In this document: positions 3,611 through 28,466 of the stretch, in pieces | Numbering within the stretch: the first letter of the stretch is position 1 | How the letters are laid out: every line of letters starts with the position of its first letter | Source of the DNA: Opitutaceae bacterium EW11 | GTDB taxonomy: Bacteria > Verrucomicrobiota > Verrucomicrobiia > Opitutales > Opitutaceae | Length of the DNA: 64,000 nt | Direction: 5' to 3' | NCBI GenBank assembly: GCA_003054665.1 | Contig: QAYY01000003.1 | Coordinates: forward strand, 558,001-622,000 | The notes under the pieces: generated by a model | Databases searched by the model: none | The model's input: the letters and a program-made list of their open reading frames with translations, nothing else | What the model was told of the DNA's origin: nothing | Program-made: the position numbers and the translations under genes

Positions 3611-5194
3611 GTGACGATGGTCTCCGGCATGTCAGAAGCCCCTGCCTCCGCCGACGTTCGCTACCCCAACCGTTCCTCTTTCGTTCTCCGGCCCTGGCAG
3701 AGTCTGGGCATTCGGGGAAAACTCCTGGTCTTGCCCGTCATCTTTGCGCTCGGCTGCCTGGCGCTGGAGGGCGTCAATCTCTACTTCGAGCAGCAAACGG
3801 TGAAGGAACTGACTGCCACCGTCGGCGAGCAGATCATGAACGGCCATCGCGGCACGCTGAAGGCCGCGGTGCAGGTGGAAGTCGGAACGATCGGCGCGCG
3901 GATCGCCGCGCTGTCGACCCGAGAGGAGAAGATCGCCGCGATCGTCGCCGAGACCGACCTCCATCGCTTCCTGGAAGACAAATCCGGCTACTTTTTTGCG
4001 TACGACGCCACGGGCGTTCGCATCAATGTACCGACCGACAAGCGGGCGAACGGGAAGAACCTGATCGACAGTCTCGACAGCAATGGCTTCCGGTTCATCG
4101 AGGCCATCGTCCAGGCGGCGAAAAACGGCGGCGGCTTTGCCCAGTACTCTTTCGAAAAACCCGGAGCCGGCGTTCAGCCCAAGCTCAGCTACTCGATGAT
4201 GATCCCCGGCTCCGATTTTCTCATCGGCGCGGGCGTGTACACCGACGACGTCGCCGCGGCCGAACGCAAGGCGGCCGAAGAAGTCGCCGCGCGTAATCGC
4301 CACGCGATCAAGGTGCTGCTCGTGATTTTCGGCGGCGTGCTCGCCACCGTGCTCGCCGCGTCCATCGGCCTGGCCCAGTCGATGAGTTCGTCGATCCGCC
4401 GCGTGATCGAGGACGTCCACGCCGCTTCCGGCGAGCTCACGGGCGCCTCGGCGCACGTGTCGGAGACCAGCCAGTCCTTGTCCGAGGGAGCCAGCGAACA
4501 GGCCGCTTCGCTCGAGGAAACCAGCTCTTCGCTCGAGGAGGTCTCGAGCATGATCCGGACGAATCTGGACCGCATTCAGCGGGTGAAAACCATCGGCGCC
4601 GAAGCGCGGTCCGCCGCTTCGCAGGGCGAGGGCGACATGGCTGCGCTGAGCCAGGCGATGACCGCGATCCGCGCCTCGGGCGACGAGATCGCCAAGATCA
4701 GCAAGACGATCGACGAGATCGCCTTTCAGACCAACCTGCTCGCGCTGAATGCGGCCGTCGAATCGGCCCGGGCGGGCGAAGCCGGTGCGGGCTTCGCCGT
4801 CGTCGCCGACGAGGTGCGGAGTCTTGCCCACCGCAGCGCCCAGGCGGCGCGCGAGACCACAGAGAAAATTCAGGATTCCATCGCCACGATTGCGCGCGGC
4901 ATCGAAATCAACCAGCGCGTGGCCATCGAACTTGCGCACATCAGCGCCAAGACCCGGGAAGTCGACGAACTTGCCGGTGAGGTCGTCACCGCGAGCGCGG
5001 AGCAGAACAAGGGTATTCAGGAGGTAAATACCGCGGTGGCGCAGATGAACACCGTGACTCAGACGACCGCGGCGTGCGCCGAGGAAAGCGCCGGCGCGGC
5101 GCAGGAAGTGAGCGCGCAGGCGGCGTCGCTTGGATCGACCGTCGAGCGGCTCTGGGCGATCGTCCAGGGTGCCGGCGCGAAAAAGCGCACCTGA
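3611..5194 (+). CDS. Methyl-accepting chemotaxis protein with periplasmic Cache domain
   Basis: The 527-residue chemoreceptor starts at a GTG preceded by AGCGAGGG at good spacing. It has a cytoplasmic N-terminal stretch, a first membrane helix around residues 36-55, a periplasmic sCache_2-like domain ([20 protein letters not shown] and [12 protein letters not shown] are typical), a second helix around 232-252, and a long signalling coiled coil. The hairpin tip [20 protein letters not shown], which binds CheA/CheW, is intact. There is no obvious HAMP, because the coil follows the second helix directly. Family members of this type often sense small carboxylates, but the ligand cannot be told from sequence. 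It stands alone, with no che genes beside it. Confidence 0.95.
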
Positions 5195-19775: not shown

Positions 19776-20364
19776 CTCATCCGCACTCCGGGAAGGCGGA
19801 GCGACTGAGCCGGTCGTCTGCGACTCGGGCCCCCCAGGACATCCCGCGGAGTCGCCCGCACGTTGCAGCGTGCAACAGCGCCCGGTCGAAGGGAGTTCAG
19901 CCGCTCGGTGAGGCACAGGGCGCTGCCCGGGTATTTGCGCTCCGCGTGTTTTGTAAGAAACAGAGGAAAAGACGGTTAAACGTCTATCGAAGAAATCCGT
20001 AATATTTCTCCGGGTCTTCCGTTTAATACGGTGAACACGTCCGCTTAGCGGTCGTGTGTTAGGGGTAAATATAGAAAGATAATGGCGGACCGCTTAGGGG
20101 TAGGCGGTCCGCCAACCTTTTTTCAGGGGTTCCGAAGTCGGAGCCGCGCTGGGTTCGGGGGCAAGCGCTGTACTCTTCGGCGAATGCCGTCCGAATGCAG
20201 GAGGCTGAGGCTCGACGCTGTGCTGCACAGGAACCGCTCGATCATTGCCGACCTTCCGAACGCCGTCGTGCGGGTGGGGGCGGCTTTCCGTTCCCCGGGG
20301 ATTTTGCCTTGGGCTCTCTCAGCCCTCGTGACGCCTGGTGGGGAGCAGGAGTCCCGAGGGCACG
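19776..20364. other. Gene-poor interval holding the first two-hairpin element
   Basis: About 590 bp between a small ORF and the 3' end of the cytochrome gene. Apart from the repeat at 20033-20123 and a short 6-bp hairpin (GTTGCA/TGCAAC near 19862), no supported gene is seen. The part from ~19950 to 20090 is noticeably more AT-rich than its surroundings. Confidence 0.5.
20033..20123 (+). ncRNA. Two-hairpin element with T-tract, copy A (candidate small RNA)
   Basis: Hairpin 1 is ACACG-T-CCGC, loop TTA, GCGG-T-CGTGT. A linker containing TTAGGGGTA and TATAGAAAG follows. Hairpin 2 is GGCGGACCGC, loop TTAGGGGTAG, GCGGTCCGCC, followed by AACCTTTTTT. The second hairpin with its T-run is a textbook intrinsic terminator. 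The whole unit recurs at 26131-26223 on the same strand. The lower part of stem 1 differs between copies while pairing is largely kept, which favours a transcribed, folded RNA. The linker and loop share TTAGGGGTA. A terminator-only or mobile repeat explanation is possible. Confidence 0.6.
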
Positions 20365-26044: not shown

Positions 26045-26130
26045 GATACCGACGGTCGTTCCTCCGCTCGCGAGAAAATCACTCAAGGATTTTTTGAACG
26101 CTCTGTATCTCTGATGTGTCTTACTTCGCC

Positions 26131-26223
26131 GAACACCTCCGCTTAGCGGTCGCGTTCGATTAGGGTAGTATAGAAAGCAACTGGCGGACCGCTTAGGGGT
26201 AGGCGGTCCGCCATCCTTTTTTT
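26131..26223 (+). ncRNA. Two-hairpin element with T-tract, copy B (candidate small RNA)
   Basis: It carries the same units as copy A at 20033: GAACAC, CCGCTTAGCGG, a TTAGGGTAG linker, TATAGAAAG, the identical 10-bp hairpin GGCGGACCGC/GCGGTCCGCC with loop TTAGGGGTAG, and a run of eight T. The lower stem 1 differs from copy A, yet GAAC still pairs with GTTC. It lies downstream of the PEP-CTERM gene and about 90 bp before the candidate KdpE sites, so it could also insulate the kdp operon from upstream transcription. Confidence 0.6.
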
Positions 26224-26310
26224 AGGGGCTGCGGGCGGCCGCCAGGCACAGGGGGCTGATGGGAGGATCACGCTGCGGTTGAGAGCCCGCCCGCTGTCTT
26301 CGAGCGGGCG

Positions 26311-26441: not shown

Positions 26442-26528
26442 ATGAATGATGCCTCCGCCGTTATGATCACCGTCGGCTTTTTCGCCCTCTGCCTGGCCTA
26501 TGCGGCGTTCTGCGAGCGGCTGCGGTGA
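26442..26528 (+). CDS. 28-residue one-helix peptide at the head of the kdp operon
   Basis: The peptide starts MNDASAVMITVGFF and ends YAAFCERLR. It is a single predicted membrane helix with two Cys residues and a basic end. Its SD (GGGAGAG) lies inside the leader stem described separately. It precedes kdpF by 27 bp and is in the same direction. It is similar in size to KdpF but different in sequence, so it is a second small subunit candidate or a regulatory leader peptide. Small ORFs in this position occur in other kdp operons, as far as I recall. Confidence 0.65.
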   Translation: MNDASAVMITVGFFALCLAYAAFCERLR

Positions 26529-26555
26529 CGGACGGGCAAAGGAAGCGTACTCGCC

Positions 26556-26639
26556 ATGGAAAACCTGCTCATCGGACTCCTCGCCCTCGGCTGCCTCGCC
26601 TATCTCACGGTGGCGGTGCTCTGGCCGGAAAAATTCTGA
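26556..26639 (+). CDS. kdpF: K+-transporting ATPase subunit KdpF
   Basis: A 27-residue peptide, MENLLIGLLALGC followed by LAYLTVAVLWPEKF. The ending W-P-E-K-F after one membrane helix is the KdpF signature. KdpF stabilises the KdpABC complex in the inner membrane. The gene precedes kdpA by 12 bp, the normal order. There is no strong SD; GGAAGCG lies ~15 bp upstream. Confidence 0.9.
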   Translation: MENLLIGLLALGCLAYLTVAVLWPEKF

Positions 26640-26651
26640 GCGACCACGCCC

Positions 26652-28466
26652 ATGAATCCATCTAGCCCCTGGCTCGAACTGGCCGCGTTTGTCGCGGCGC
26701 TGCTGCTGATCACGAAACCGCTCGGGAATTATCTTCTGGCGGTGCTCGATCCAAACGGGAGGACGTTTCTCGACCCCGTGGTGAAGCCGCTTGAGCGGCT
26801 GACCTTCCGACTTTGTGGAATCGACGCGCAGCGTCAGCAGGACTGGAAACGCTACAGCCTCAGCCTGCTGACGTTCAGCGCCGTGAGCATGCTGTTCACG
26901 TATTTCGTTCTGCGATACCAGGACAGGCTTCCGTTGAATCCTCAAGGGTTCGCCGGGCTTTCGCCGGCGCTGGCGTTCAACACCGCGGCGAGTTTCACGA
27001 CGAACACCAATTGGCAGAACTATGCGGGCGAAGCGACGATGTCGTACTTTTCGCAGATGGTGGCGCTCGCGTTCCACAATTTCGCCTCCGCAGCGGCAGG
27101 CATCGGCGTCGCGGCTGCCCTGGTGCGGGGGATCGCGGGGCACAGCACGAAAAGCCTGGGCAGCTTCTGGTCGGATCTCGTTCGCGTGACGTATTATCTT
27201 TTGGTCCCGCTCAGCTTCGTTTTTGCCCTGGTCCTGGTTTCCCAAGGCATTGTCCAGAGCTTCGGGCCCTATGAGACGGCGCGGCTGGTGGAGCCGCAGT
27301 CCGTCCGGATTCAAAAGATCGGCGCCGATGGTGTGCCCGCCGTGGACACCTTCGGCCACGCGGTATTCACCGAGCAAAGAGTCGCTACGCAGACCATCGT
27401 GCAGGGCCCGATCGCCTCGCAGGTGGCGATCAAGATGCTGGGAACGAATGGCGGCGGATACGTGAACGCCAATGCGGCGCATCCGTTCGAGAATCCCACG
27501 CCGCTGTCGAATTTCCTGCAGATGCTCTCGATCTTCGCGATCCCGAGCGCGCTGACCTACTACCTTGGCAGGACGGTGAAGAGCCCGCGCCACGGCTGGG
27601 CCGTATGGACGGCAATGTTTGTCCTCTTTCTCGCTGGAGCGCTCGTGGCGTGGAAGGCGGAGGCCGCGGGCAATCCGGTTCACCAGCGCCTCGGCGTTTC
27701 TGTCGCGGACGGAAATATGGAAGGCAAGGAGGTGCGTTTTGGCATCTTCGAATCGGCCTTGTTTGCGACGGTCACCACTGATGCCTCGTGCGGGGCGGTG
27801 AACGCCATGCACGATTCGCTTACGCCGCTAGGCGGTCTTGTGCCGCTCTTCAACATGCAGACGGGCGAGGTGATTTTCGGCGGCGTCGGCGCGGGGCTCT
27901 ACGGCATGCTCATCTTTGTGGTGCTCGCGGTGTTCATCGCCGGATTGATGGTCGGACGCACCCCTGAATACCTCGGGAAGAAGATCGAGGCGTACGACGT
28001 GAAGCTTGTCATGCTCGTGCTGATCGTGCTTTCGACGGCGGTTCTAGGGTTCACCGCCTGGGGCGCCGTTTCCGAGTGGGGCCGGGCGGGATTGAACAAC
28101 TCAGGTCCGCACGGCTTCAGCGAGGTTCTCTACGCCTTCAGTTCCGGCGTAGGGAACAACGGCTCCGCGTTCGCGGGGCTCACGGGGAATCCGTCCAACG
28201 GCGACTGGCACTACAACGTCACGGGCGGACTGGCCATGTTGATCGGGCGTTTCCTCATGATCGTTCCCATCCTGGCGCTGGCCGGAAGTCTCGGTGCGAA
28301 AAAGCGGTTGCCCGCCAGTGCCGGGACGTTCCGAACCGAGGGAATCACGTTCGTGGTGCTCCTAGTGGGCACGGTGGTGCTCGTTGGAGCCCTGACGTTC
28401 CTGCCGGCCTTGGCCATGGGGCCGGTGTTGGAGCATTTCCTCCTGCAGACGGGGCAACTGTTCTGA
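26652..28466 (+). CDS. kdpA: K+-transporting ATPase subunit A
   Basis: The 604-residue channel-like subunit of the KdpFABC high-affinity K+ pump, an inner-membrane protein related to Trk/Ktr transporters. The four selectivity-filter regions are visible: [51 protein letters not shown] and [14 protein letters not shown]. It is somewhat longer than the ~557-residue E. coli protein, owing to an enlarged loop (about residues 205-260, including [20 protein letters not shown]) that may face the periplasm. The gene order F-A-B-C is standard. Expression is expected at low external K+ through KdpDE. Confidence 0.97.

Follow-up and report, generated by a model that had tools for sequence, protein, structure and literature searches.

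Two copies (A and B) of a short element composed of two hairpins and a terminal T-run are present in the window (the whole stretch of 64,000 nucleotides of Opitutaceae DNA analysed in this study). Both are encoded on the + strand and lie outside genes as called by our own gene caller, and the element that the original prediction had placed at 20033-20123 and 26131-26223 was seen in the sequence at both sites (Table 1). In copy A, the arms of the first stem (ACACG..CGTGT) enclose CCGCTTAGCGG and are followed by a linker (TTAGGGGTA, then TATAGAAAG), a second hairpin of 10 bp (GGCGGACCGC/GCGGTCCGCC) and six T. Copy B has its parts in the same order, with an identical hairpin 2, a linker (TTAGGGTAG) that is one G shorter, and seven T. 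As had been proposed, the differences in stem 1 mostly keep pairing (ACACG..CGTGT in A and GAAC..GTTC in B). The identity of the 10-bp hairpin was likewise borne out; the presumed 10-nt loop can further close by U-G, U-A and A-U pairs, which leaves a GGGG tetraloop. The + strands of both copies folded better than 200 of 200 dinucleotide shuffles (z -5.6 for A and -4.2 for B) and so did the opposite strands (z -6.5 and -4.5, respectively), thus the coding strand cannot be told from folding alone. Copy B is flanked by a PEP-CTERM phytase-like gene and by kdpA. Just behind this copy, kdpA is preceded by two very short ORFs (26443-26652), of which the second presumably corresponds to KdpF.

Table 1 Features of the two copies of the element found in the window and the evidence for each.
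Feature	Position	Strand	Evidence
sRNA copy A, full model match (93 model positions)	20030..20126	+	cmsearch with second covariance model (R2), 87.3 bits; sequence
Copy A hairpin 1 (ACACG.CCGC/GCGG.CGTGT)	20035..20057	+	fold
Copy A linker motif GGGGTA	20062..20067	+	sequence; GGGGTWM common in family
Copy A linker motif AGAAAG	20073..20078	+	sequence; conserved column block
Copy A hairpin 2, terminator stem, loop TTAGGGGTAG	20084..20113	+	fold; family covariation
Copy A T-run, intrinsic terminator tail	20118..20123	+	sequence
Putative ECF-like promoter of copy B, TGAAC-N17-TGTCTTAC	26095..26124	+	pattern match; pattern enriched upstream in independent copies
sRNA copy B, full model match	26128..26225	+	cmsearch with second covariance model (R2), 80.3 bits; sequence
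Copy B hairpin 1, outer pairs GAAC..GTTC	26131..26157	+	fold
Copy B linker motif AGGGTA, one G less than copy A	26162..26167	+	sequence
Copy B linker motif AGAAAG	26172..26177	+	sequence; conserved column block
Copy B hairpin 2, terminator stem, loop TTAGGGGTAG	26183..26212	+	fold
Copy B T-run	26217..26223	+	sequence

BLAST and model searches revealed six full copies in the genome from which the window derives, four of them on contig C11 and copies A and B on contig C27, so the original count of two holds for the window and understates the genome. A 16-mer of the terminator loop has exactly six exact occurrences in this genome, each inside a full copy. With up to two mismatches allowed, it gave 7 matches versus 10 for a reversed-pattern control, and therefore only exact matches were considered meaningful.

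A first covariance model, built from these six copies, detected the element in 119 of 120 Opitutaceae genomes (95 of the 96 good ones). The copy number had a median of 2 and a range of 0-7: none in 1 genome, one in 24, two in 50, three in 32, four in 7, five in 2, six in 3 and seven in 1. A scan of genome contigs with the loop 16-mer yielded at least 113 stretches. Among the 80 listed, 71 carried the full element (74 matches, E 4.5e-11 or better), while the nine others, seven of which come from records titled as other phyla, were taken as chance matches. The records of the listed loci are mostly assigned to Opitutaceae, Opitutae/Opitutia or unspecified Verrucomicrobia, with Pelagicoccus and Puniceicoccaceae included. 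Two full copies were found in records titled Parcubacteria (L058, 825-916) and Akkermansia muciniphila (L091, 1579-1672), and these contigs are probably mis-binned.

A second covariance model was based on 106 matches from 100 sources (alignment A4), picked by eye among listed copies and later loci, with near-duplicates and element-free loci left out. In a phylum-wide sample it found matches in 43 of 288 Verrucomicrobiota genomes. These comprise 26/26 genomes of the same family and 17/18 of other Opitutales families (43/44 for the order), with none among 244 genomes outside Opitutales, a split read from a kinship-sorted listing that names 20 of the 245 match-free genomes. In a larger sample of the order, 202 of 276 genomes had a match and 74 had none under strict filters, hence the presence of the element across Opitutales is not universal; the 20 match-free genomes listed include ten of approx. 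0.8-1.3 Mb and ten of 2-4 Mb. A further set (A5) was collected with a model trained on A4, and the removal of three opposite-strand shadow matches reduced it from 74 to 71 copies. As loci L014-L126 had been selected by the exact loop 16-mer, the invariance of the loop in A4 is there by construction, and the A5 figures are less biased. Among the A5 copies, GGGG was found at positions 45-75 (the loop region) in 69/71, TAGGGGTA within the 3' part in 62/71, GGGGTWM inside the first 60 nt in 50/71 and a loose T-tract pattern behind the hairpin in 60/71.

The structure of the element is strongly supported by covariation. In 99 distinct rows (from 106 copies), compensatory changes on both sides were found in 17 of 19 pairs (267 cells), paired cells amounted to 92.7% in the alignment, 80.9% when it was shuffled and no more than 52.5% when partners were slid, and none of 500 shuffles reached the observed covariation score. 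In hairpin 1, all nine pairs show both-side changes in the family, with the two outermost broken in 64 and 46 of the 99 rows, and in hairpin 2 such changes affect 8 of 10 pairs, with 99.7% of the cells paired. RNAalifold recovered the same two hairpins from this alignment (20 pairs, 15 with both-side changes) and from a fresh MAFFT alignment. G-U cells outnumber A-C cells in hairpin 2 (11 vs 2) and in hairpin 1 (18 vs 3 for the inner seven pairs, 19 vs 7 for all nine), which fits an RNA of the T-tailed strand and not a DNA cruciform or the opposite strand. The element thus displays a conserved one-strand RNA structure and, in the pairing of hairpin 2 with its T-tract, an intrinsic terminator, as is expected of a trans-acting bacterial sRNA. 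Hairpin 2 and the U-tail by themselves have the form of any terminator, so the copies might be ordinary intrinsic terminators that are alike by chance or GC content, but hairpin 1 (itself covarying), the linker and the loop are jointly conserved across the order and promoter patterns are enriched upstream (see below), which makes this reading scarcely credible. A small ORF starting from an AUG in the linker was rejected, because in the alignment this AUG is missing in some copies, and stem changes and indels break the codons.

The genomic neighbourhood of the copies was analysed in rows pooled from A4 and A5, in which a few copies are counted twice. With our own codon-score gene caller, 145 of 155 rows overlapped no gene and 10 overlapped a called ORF. 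The downstream gene was on the same strand in 84 and convergent in 57 of the 141 rows with a called neighbour (in 14/155 none was called). A protein-motif scan of 173 rows identified 37 distinct sequences directly ahead of a DAHP synthase gene and 15 copies (14 loci) followed by a phoH-like gene, in both cases on the same strand. For one locus each, these assignments were supported by Pfam (PF00793 in L251; PF02562 and PIN_4 in L248). Pfam also indicated a divergent gene with a GCV_T domain on the other side of L251 and a malate dehydrogenase-type gene downstream of L061. Copies of the GGAACTT type are arranged end-to-end with a nitrite/sulphite reductase-like gene at both loci checked (L054 and L042).

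Such conserved synteny, together with the majority of same-strand downstream genes, could suggest a cis-acting leader or attenuator, in which the terminator hairpin would set read-through into the downstream gene (DAHP synthase or PhoH-like). The convergent genes argue that the RNA is not in general the leader of the next gene, unrelated genes follow the same RNA, and at some loci (L109, L062, L103 and L156) the copy and the DAHP synthase gene are separated by a second, unrelated hairpin with a T-run. We consider this reading improbable, and attenuation of the DAHP synthase gene was rejected as a general function since many copies face convergent genes. A REP-like or MITE-like mobile repeat carrying a terminator, to which the several scattered copies per genome, the palindromic parts and the tandem copies at L041 and L017 could point, is largely refuted and now very improbable: the copy number is low, the element is present in nearly all genomes of the family, its neighbourhoods are conserved with promoter patterns at similar distances, its G-U pairs are strand-specific, the resemblance among the copies of the window's genome stops at the element ends, and no transposase was found among 20 neighbouring proteins scanned.

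The regions upstream of the copies comprise three groups, first recognised by eye in the discovery set (A4 with duplicates removed, 106 to 103, of which 98 were long enough). These are: (i) sigma70-like, (ii) ECF-like and (iii) sigma54-like. TTGAC at -46..-40 was used to choose 55 distinct sequences, in which a 16-nt spacer leads to a TAnnnT box (T 0.75, A 0.58, T 0.89) and then to ..ACCATCA; we infer a start approx. 8 nt ahead of the first position of the model. The second group has TGAAAC or GGAAC followed by YGTC(T/A), and the third TGGCACG-N4-TTGCW at -24/-12, arrangements that are like those of ECF and sigma54 promoters, respectively. The sigma70-like copies are typically found ahead of the DAHP synthase gene, and some ECF-like copies ahead of the phoH-like gene. 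As the groups had been seen by eye, and a looser sigma54 pattern barely exceeded an unmatched background (16.0% vs 12.5%; GC-matched background 6.7%), stricter patterns were tried on 60 independent copies fetched later and compared with 5000 background windows matched for GC, not for gene context. The sigma54 pattern (at least 9 of 12 consensus positions) was found in 10/60 copies (16.7% vs 2.06% in the background; discovery set 11/98), TTGAC at -56..-30 in 14/60 (23.3% vs 2.36%; discovery 45/98) and the ECF pattern in 4/60 (6.7% vs 0.60%; discovery 16/98). One copy fits two patterns, and 27 fit at least one. Three matches, two to the sigma54 pattern (of ten) and one to the ECF pattern (of four), sit at -74 to -97 and may be due to chance. 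Each copy may stand behind a promoter of its own, but 33 of the 60 independent copies match none of the patterns.

Inspection by eye of 11 multi-copy genomes revealed sigma70-type and sigma54-type copies combined in seven (G003, G013, G020, G039, G047, G063 and G074) and sigma70-type and ECF-type copies combined in four (G003, G004, G015 and, on visual judgement alone, G048). The window's genome has one copy of the sigma70 type (L251), one of the sigma54 type (L249) and two ECF-like ones (L248 and copy B), while copy A, which matches none of the three patterns, and L250 are unassigned. Sigma54 is encoded in all 12 genomes tested. As the paralogs of a genome thus appear to have promoters of different types, the same RNA could be fed by more than one signal.

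Considering the structure, strand, order-level spread, copy number and promoter-pattern enrichment as read from the sequences, the elements very probably constitute a family of stand-alone sibling genes for trans-acting sRNAs, with copies under different promoter types. This agrees with the original prediction of a new small RNA family, which remains the best reading given the strong covariation, the intergenic copies and the lack of an Rfam match (see below). Each copy would be a small gene for a non-coding RNA of approx. 90-110 nt, with its own promoter followed by hairpin 1, a linker that is conserved and unpaired (UUUUGGGGUAAC..AAGAAAGCAA), a second hairpin rich in GC and a U-tail, the latter presumably ending transcription. 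The loop of the GC-rich hairpin repeats UUAGGGGUAG, so that GGGGUA would be displayed twice per RNA.

The mode of action can be approached through potential partners and targets. Among 12 genomes tested, all of which carry the RNA, neither Hfq nor ProQ was found in any, RRM proteins are encoded in every one, and CsrA is present in eight. CsrB/RsmZ-type RNAs are protein-titrating RNAs, and the site of CsrA is GGA in a loop. The Opitutales RNA resembles them in having a short G-rich motif at more than one place per molecule and differs in the motif itself (GGGGUA); a CsrA-titrating function was rejected, as CsrA is missing in four of the RNA-carrying genomes.

Base pairing was examined with 547 and 557 predicted starts from parts of two genomes (G000 C11 1-800000 and G004 stretches, loci L276-L355), a scale at which a handful of targets would escape. 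The leaders are C-rich right before the start codon, with the sense-biased words CCCATG and CCCCAT. In the starts predicted by a simple gene caller, a Shine-Dalgarno-like motif was seen at only 14-17%, with C-rich sequence such as CCCATG ahead. An antisense sRNA, whose unpaired GGGGUA and AAGAAAG would bind a few mRNAs at C-rich stretches and thereby block or stabilise these mRNAs, would agree with these leaders and with the accessible, conserved G-rich loop and linker, the U-tail and the sibling copies, which resemble base-pairing sRNAs. GCTTTC, the complement of the linker, occurred 20 times in one genome, above the average of its anagrams (10.9, sd 6.1), and 13 times in the other, close to that average (11.9). 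Nevertheless, GGGGTA as an antisense seed, suggested in the original prediction, gained no support from k-mer and duplex-energy tests in these parts of the two genomes: sites complementary to the loop were not in excess near start codons, and in initiation regions TACCCC occurred less often than its anagrams (8 vs a mean of 15.7 and 7 vs 22.1), a scarcity to which the rarity of TA may contribute. Linker and loop gained nothing in mean duplex energy over shuffled regions. The loop paired slightly better than its reversed sequence (-12.75 vs -12.49 and -12.48 vs -12.20), but it also did so against shuffled regions. The absence of Hfq and ProQ also speaks against antisense action, which we rank next, as a tentative alternative. 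These null results leave room for a small number of specific mRNA targets, or for a protein or a conserved RNA as the partner. Because UNGGGGUA is duplicated and varies little on a varying stem, we lean towards a partner that is conserved, which may be an RNA-binding protein of the RRM type. That the RNA presents the motif twice to such a partner, which it would hold or titrate, is our preferred guess and one for which the chances appear about even. A bolder proposal, possible though rather unlikely, is a regulatory hub in most of Opitutales, in which housekeeping, ECF-stress and sigma54 signals would each drive their own copy of one duplicated, Hfq/ProQ-free RNA effector that shows the motif, in linker and loop, to an RNA-binding protein.

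No Rfam family fits this RNA. A search with Rfam release 15 (4227 models) gave no matches in the window at the gathering threshold and, for four copies of the window's genome at E up to 5, nothing credible (best E 2.5). Among the open-licence PMC papers listed for Verrucomicrobia and Opitutaceae sRNAs, no title or beginning of an abstract describes this RNA; an earlier account elsewhere is possible. It is, apparently, an undescribed sRNA family present in most sampled Opitutales genomes in 1-7 copies, which are apparently switched on by different sigma factors. GlmY reportedly has overlapping sigma54 and sigma70 promoters and is similar, as an sRNA under more than one sigma factor, although by description it is one gene with two promoters, whereas the Opitutales RNA has separate gene copies with different promoter patterns. 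By analogy, the nearest known kinds would be sibling sRNAs and the RbpB-bound FopS sRNAs of Bacteroides. The former include OmrA/B, Rfr and RsmY/Z (PMC4211561, a review that also names CsrB/RsmZ-type RNAs) and Qrr (PMC11697453). As described there, they likewise occur as several RNAs per genome that are closely related, some with separately controlled promoters; the Opitutales RNA differs in its lack of an Rfam match, the absence of Hfq, the motif shown twice and copies apparently under sigma70-like, ECF-like and sigma54-like promoters. The FopS family of Bacteroides thetaiotaomicron, according to PMC11697453, has 14 paralogous members, to which the RRM protein RbpB binds and which are transcribed from canonical housekeeping-sigma promoters. 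The likeness, which is one of description, lies in a multicopy paralogous family outside Pseudomonadota with many intergenic copies and in the RRM proteins that the Opitutales genomes also encode, while the Opitutales copies differ among themselves in promoter patterns. For the entire PVC group, only 8 distinct sRNAs are given in a review that compiles Rfam annotations (PMC9029176). The presence of an RNA without an Rfam match in almost the entire family and most of the order suggests that very little of the post-transcriptional control in Verrucomicrobiota has been charted. If the promoter reading is true, the copies differ in control and share one effector, and would allow the reasons for which bacteria retain sibling sRNAs to be tested directly, in a background free of Hfq and ProQ. 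The covariance model makes the RNA findable in Opitutales genomes and metatranscriptomes.

Several structural variants were also observed. In other Opitutales families, an extra hairpin is inserted between GGGGUAAC and AAAGUAGA (e.g. L241, L242, L230 and L240), and at L230, L241 and L242 two or three copies are located close to each other. At L056 (7763-7889), the terminator hairpin with the GGGGTA loop is doubled in tandem. A diverged three-hairpin paralog with a sigma54-like promoter pattern was seen in four genomes, one per genome (L213, L216 and L222, each at 4900-5081, and L221 at 4900-5080). It carries GGGGTTACATGG... GTTAAGGGGTTTT in L213 and L216, and both of these copies adjoin AhpC/TSA-family genes.
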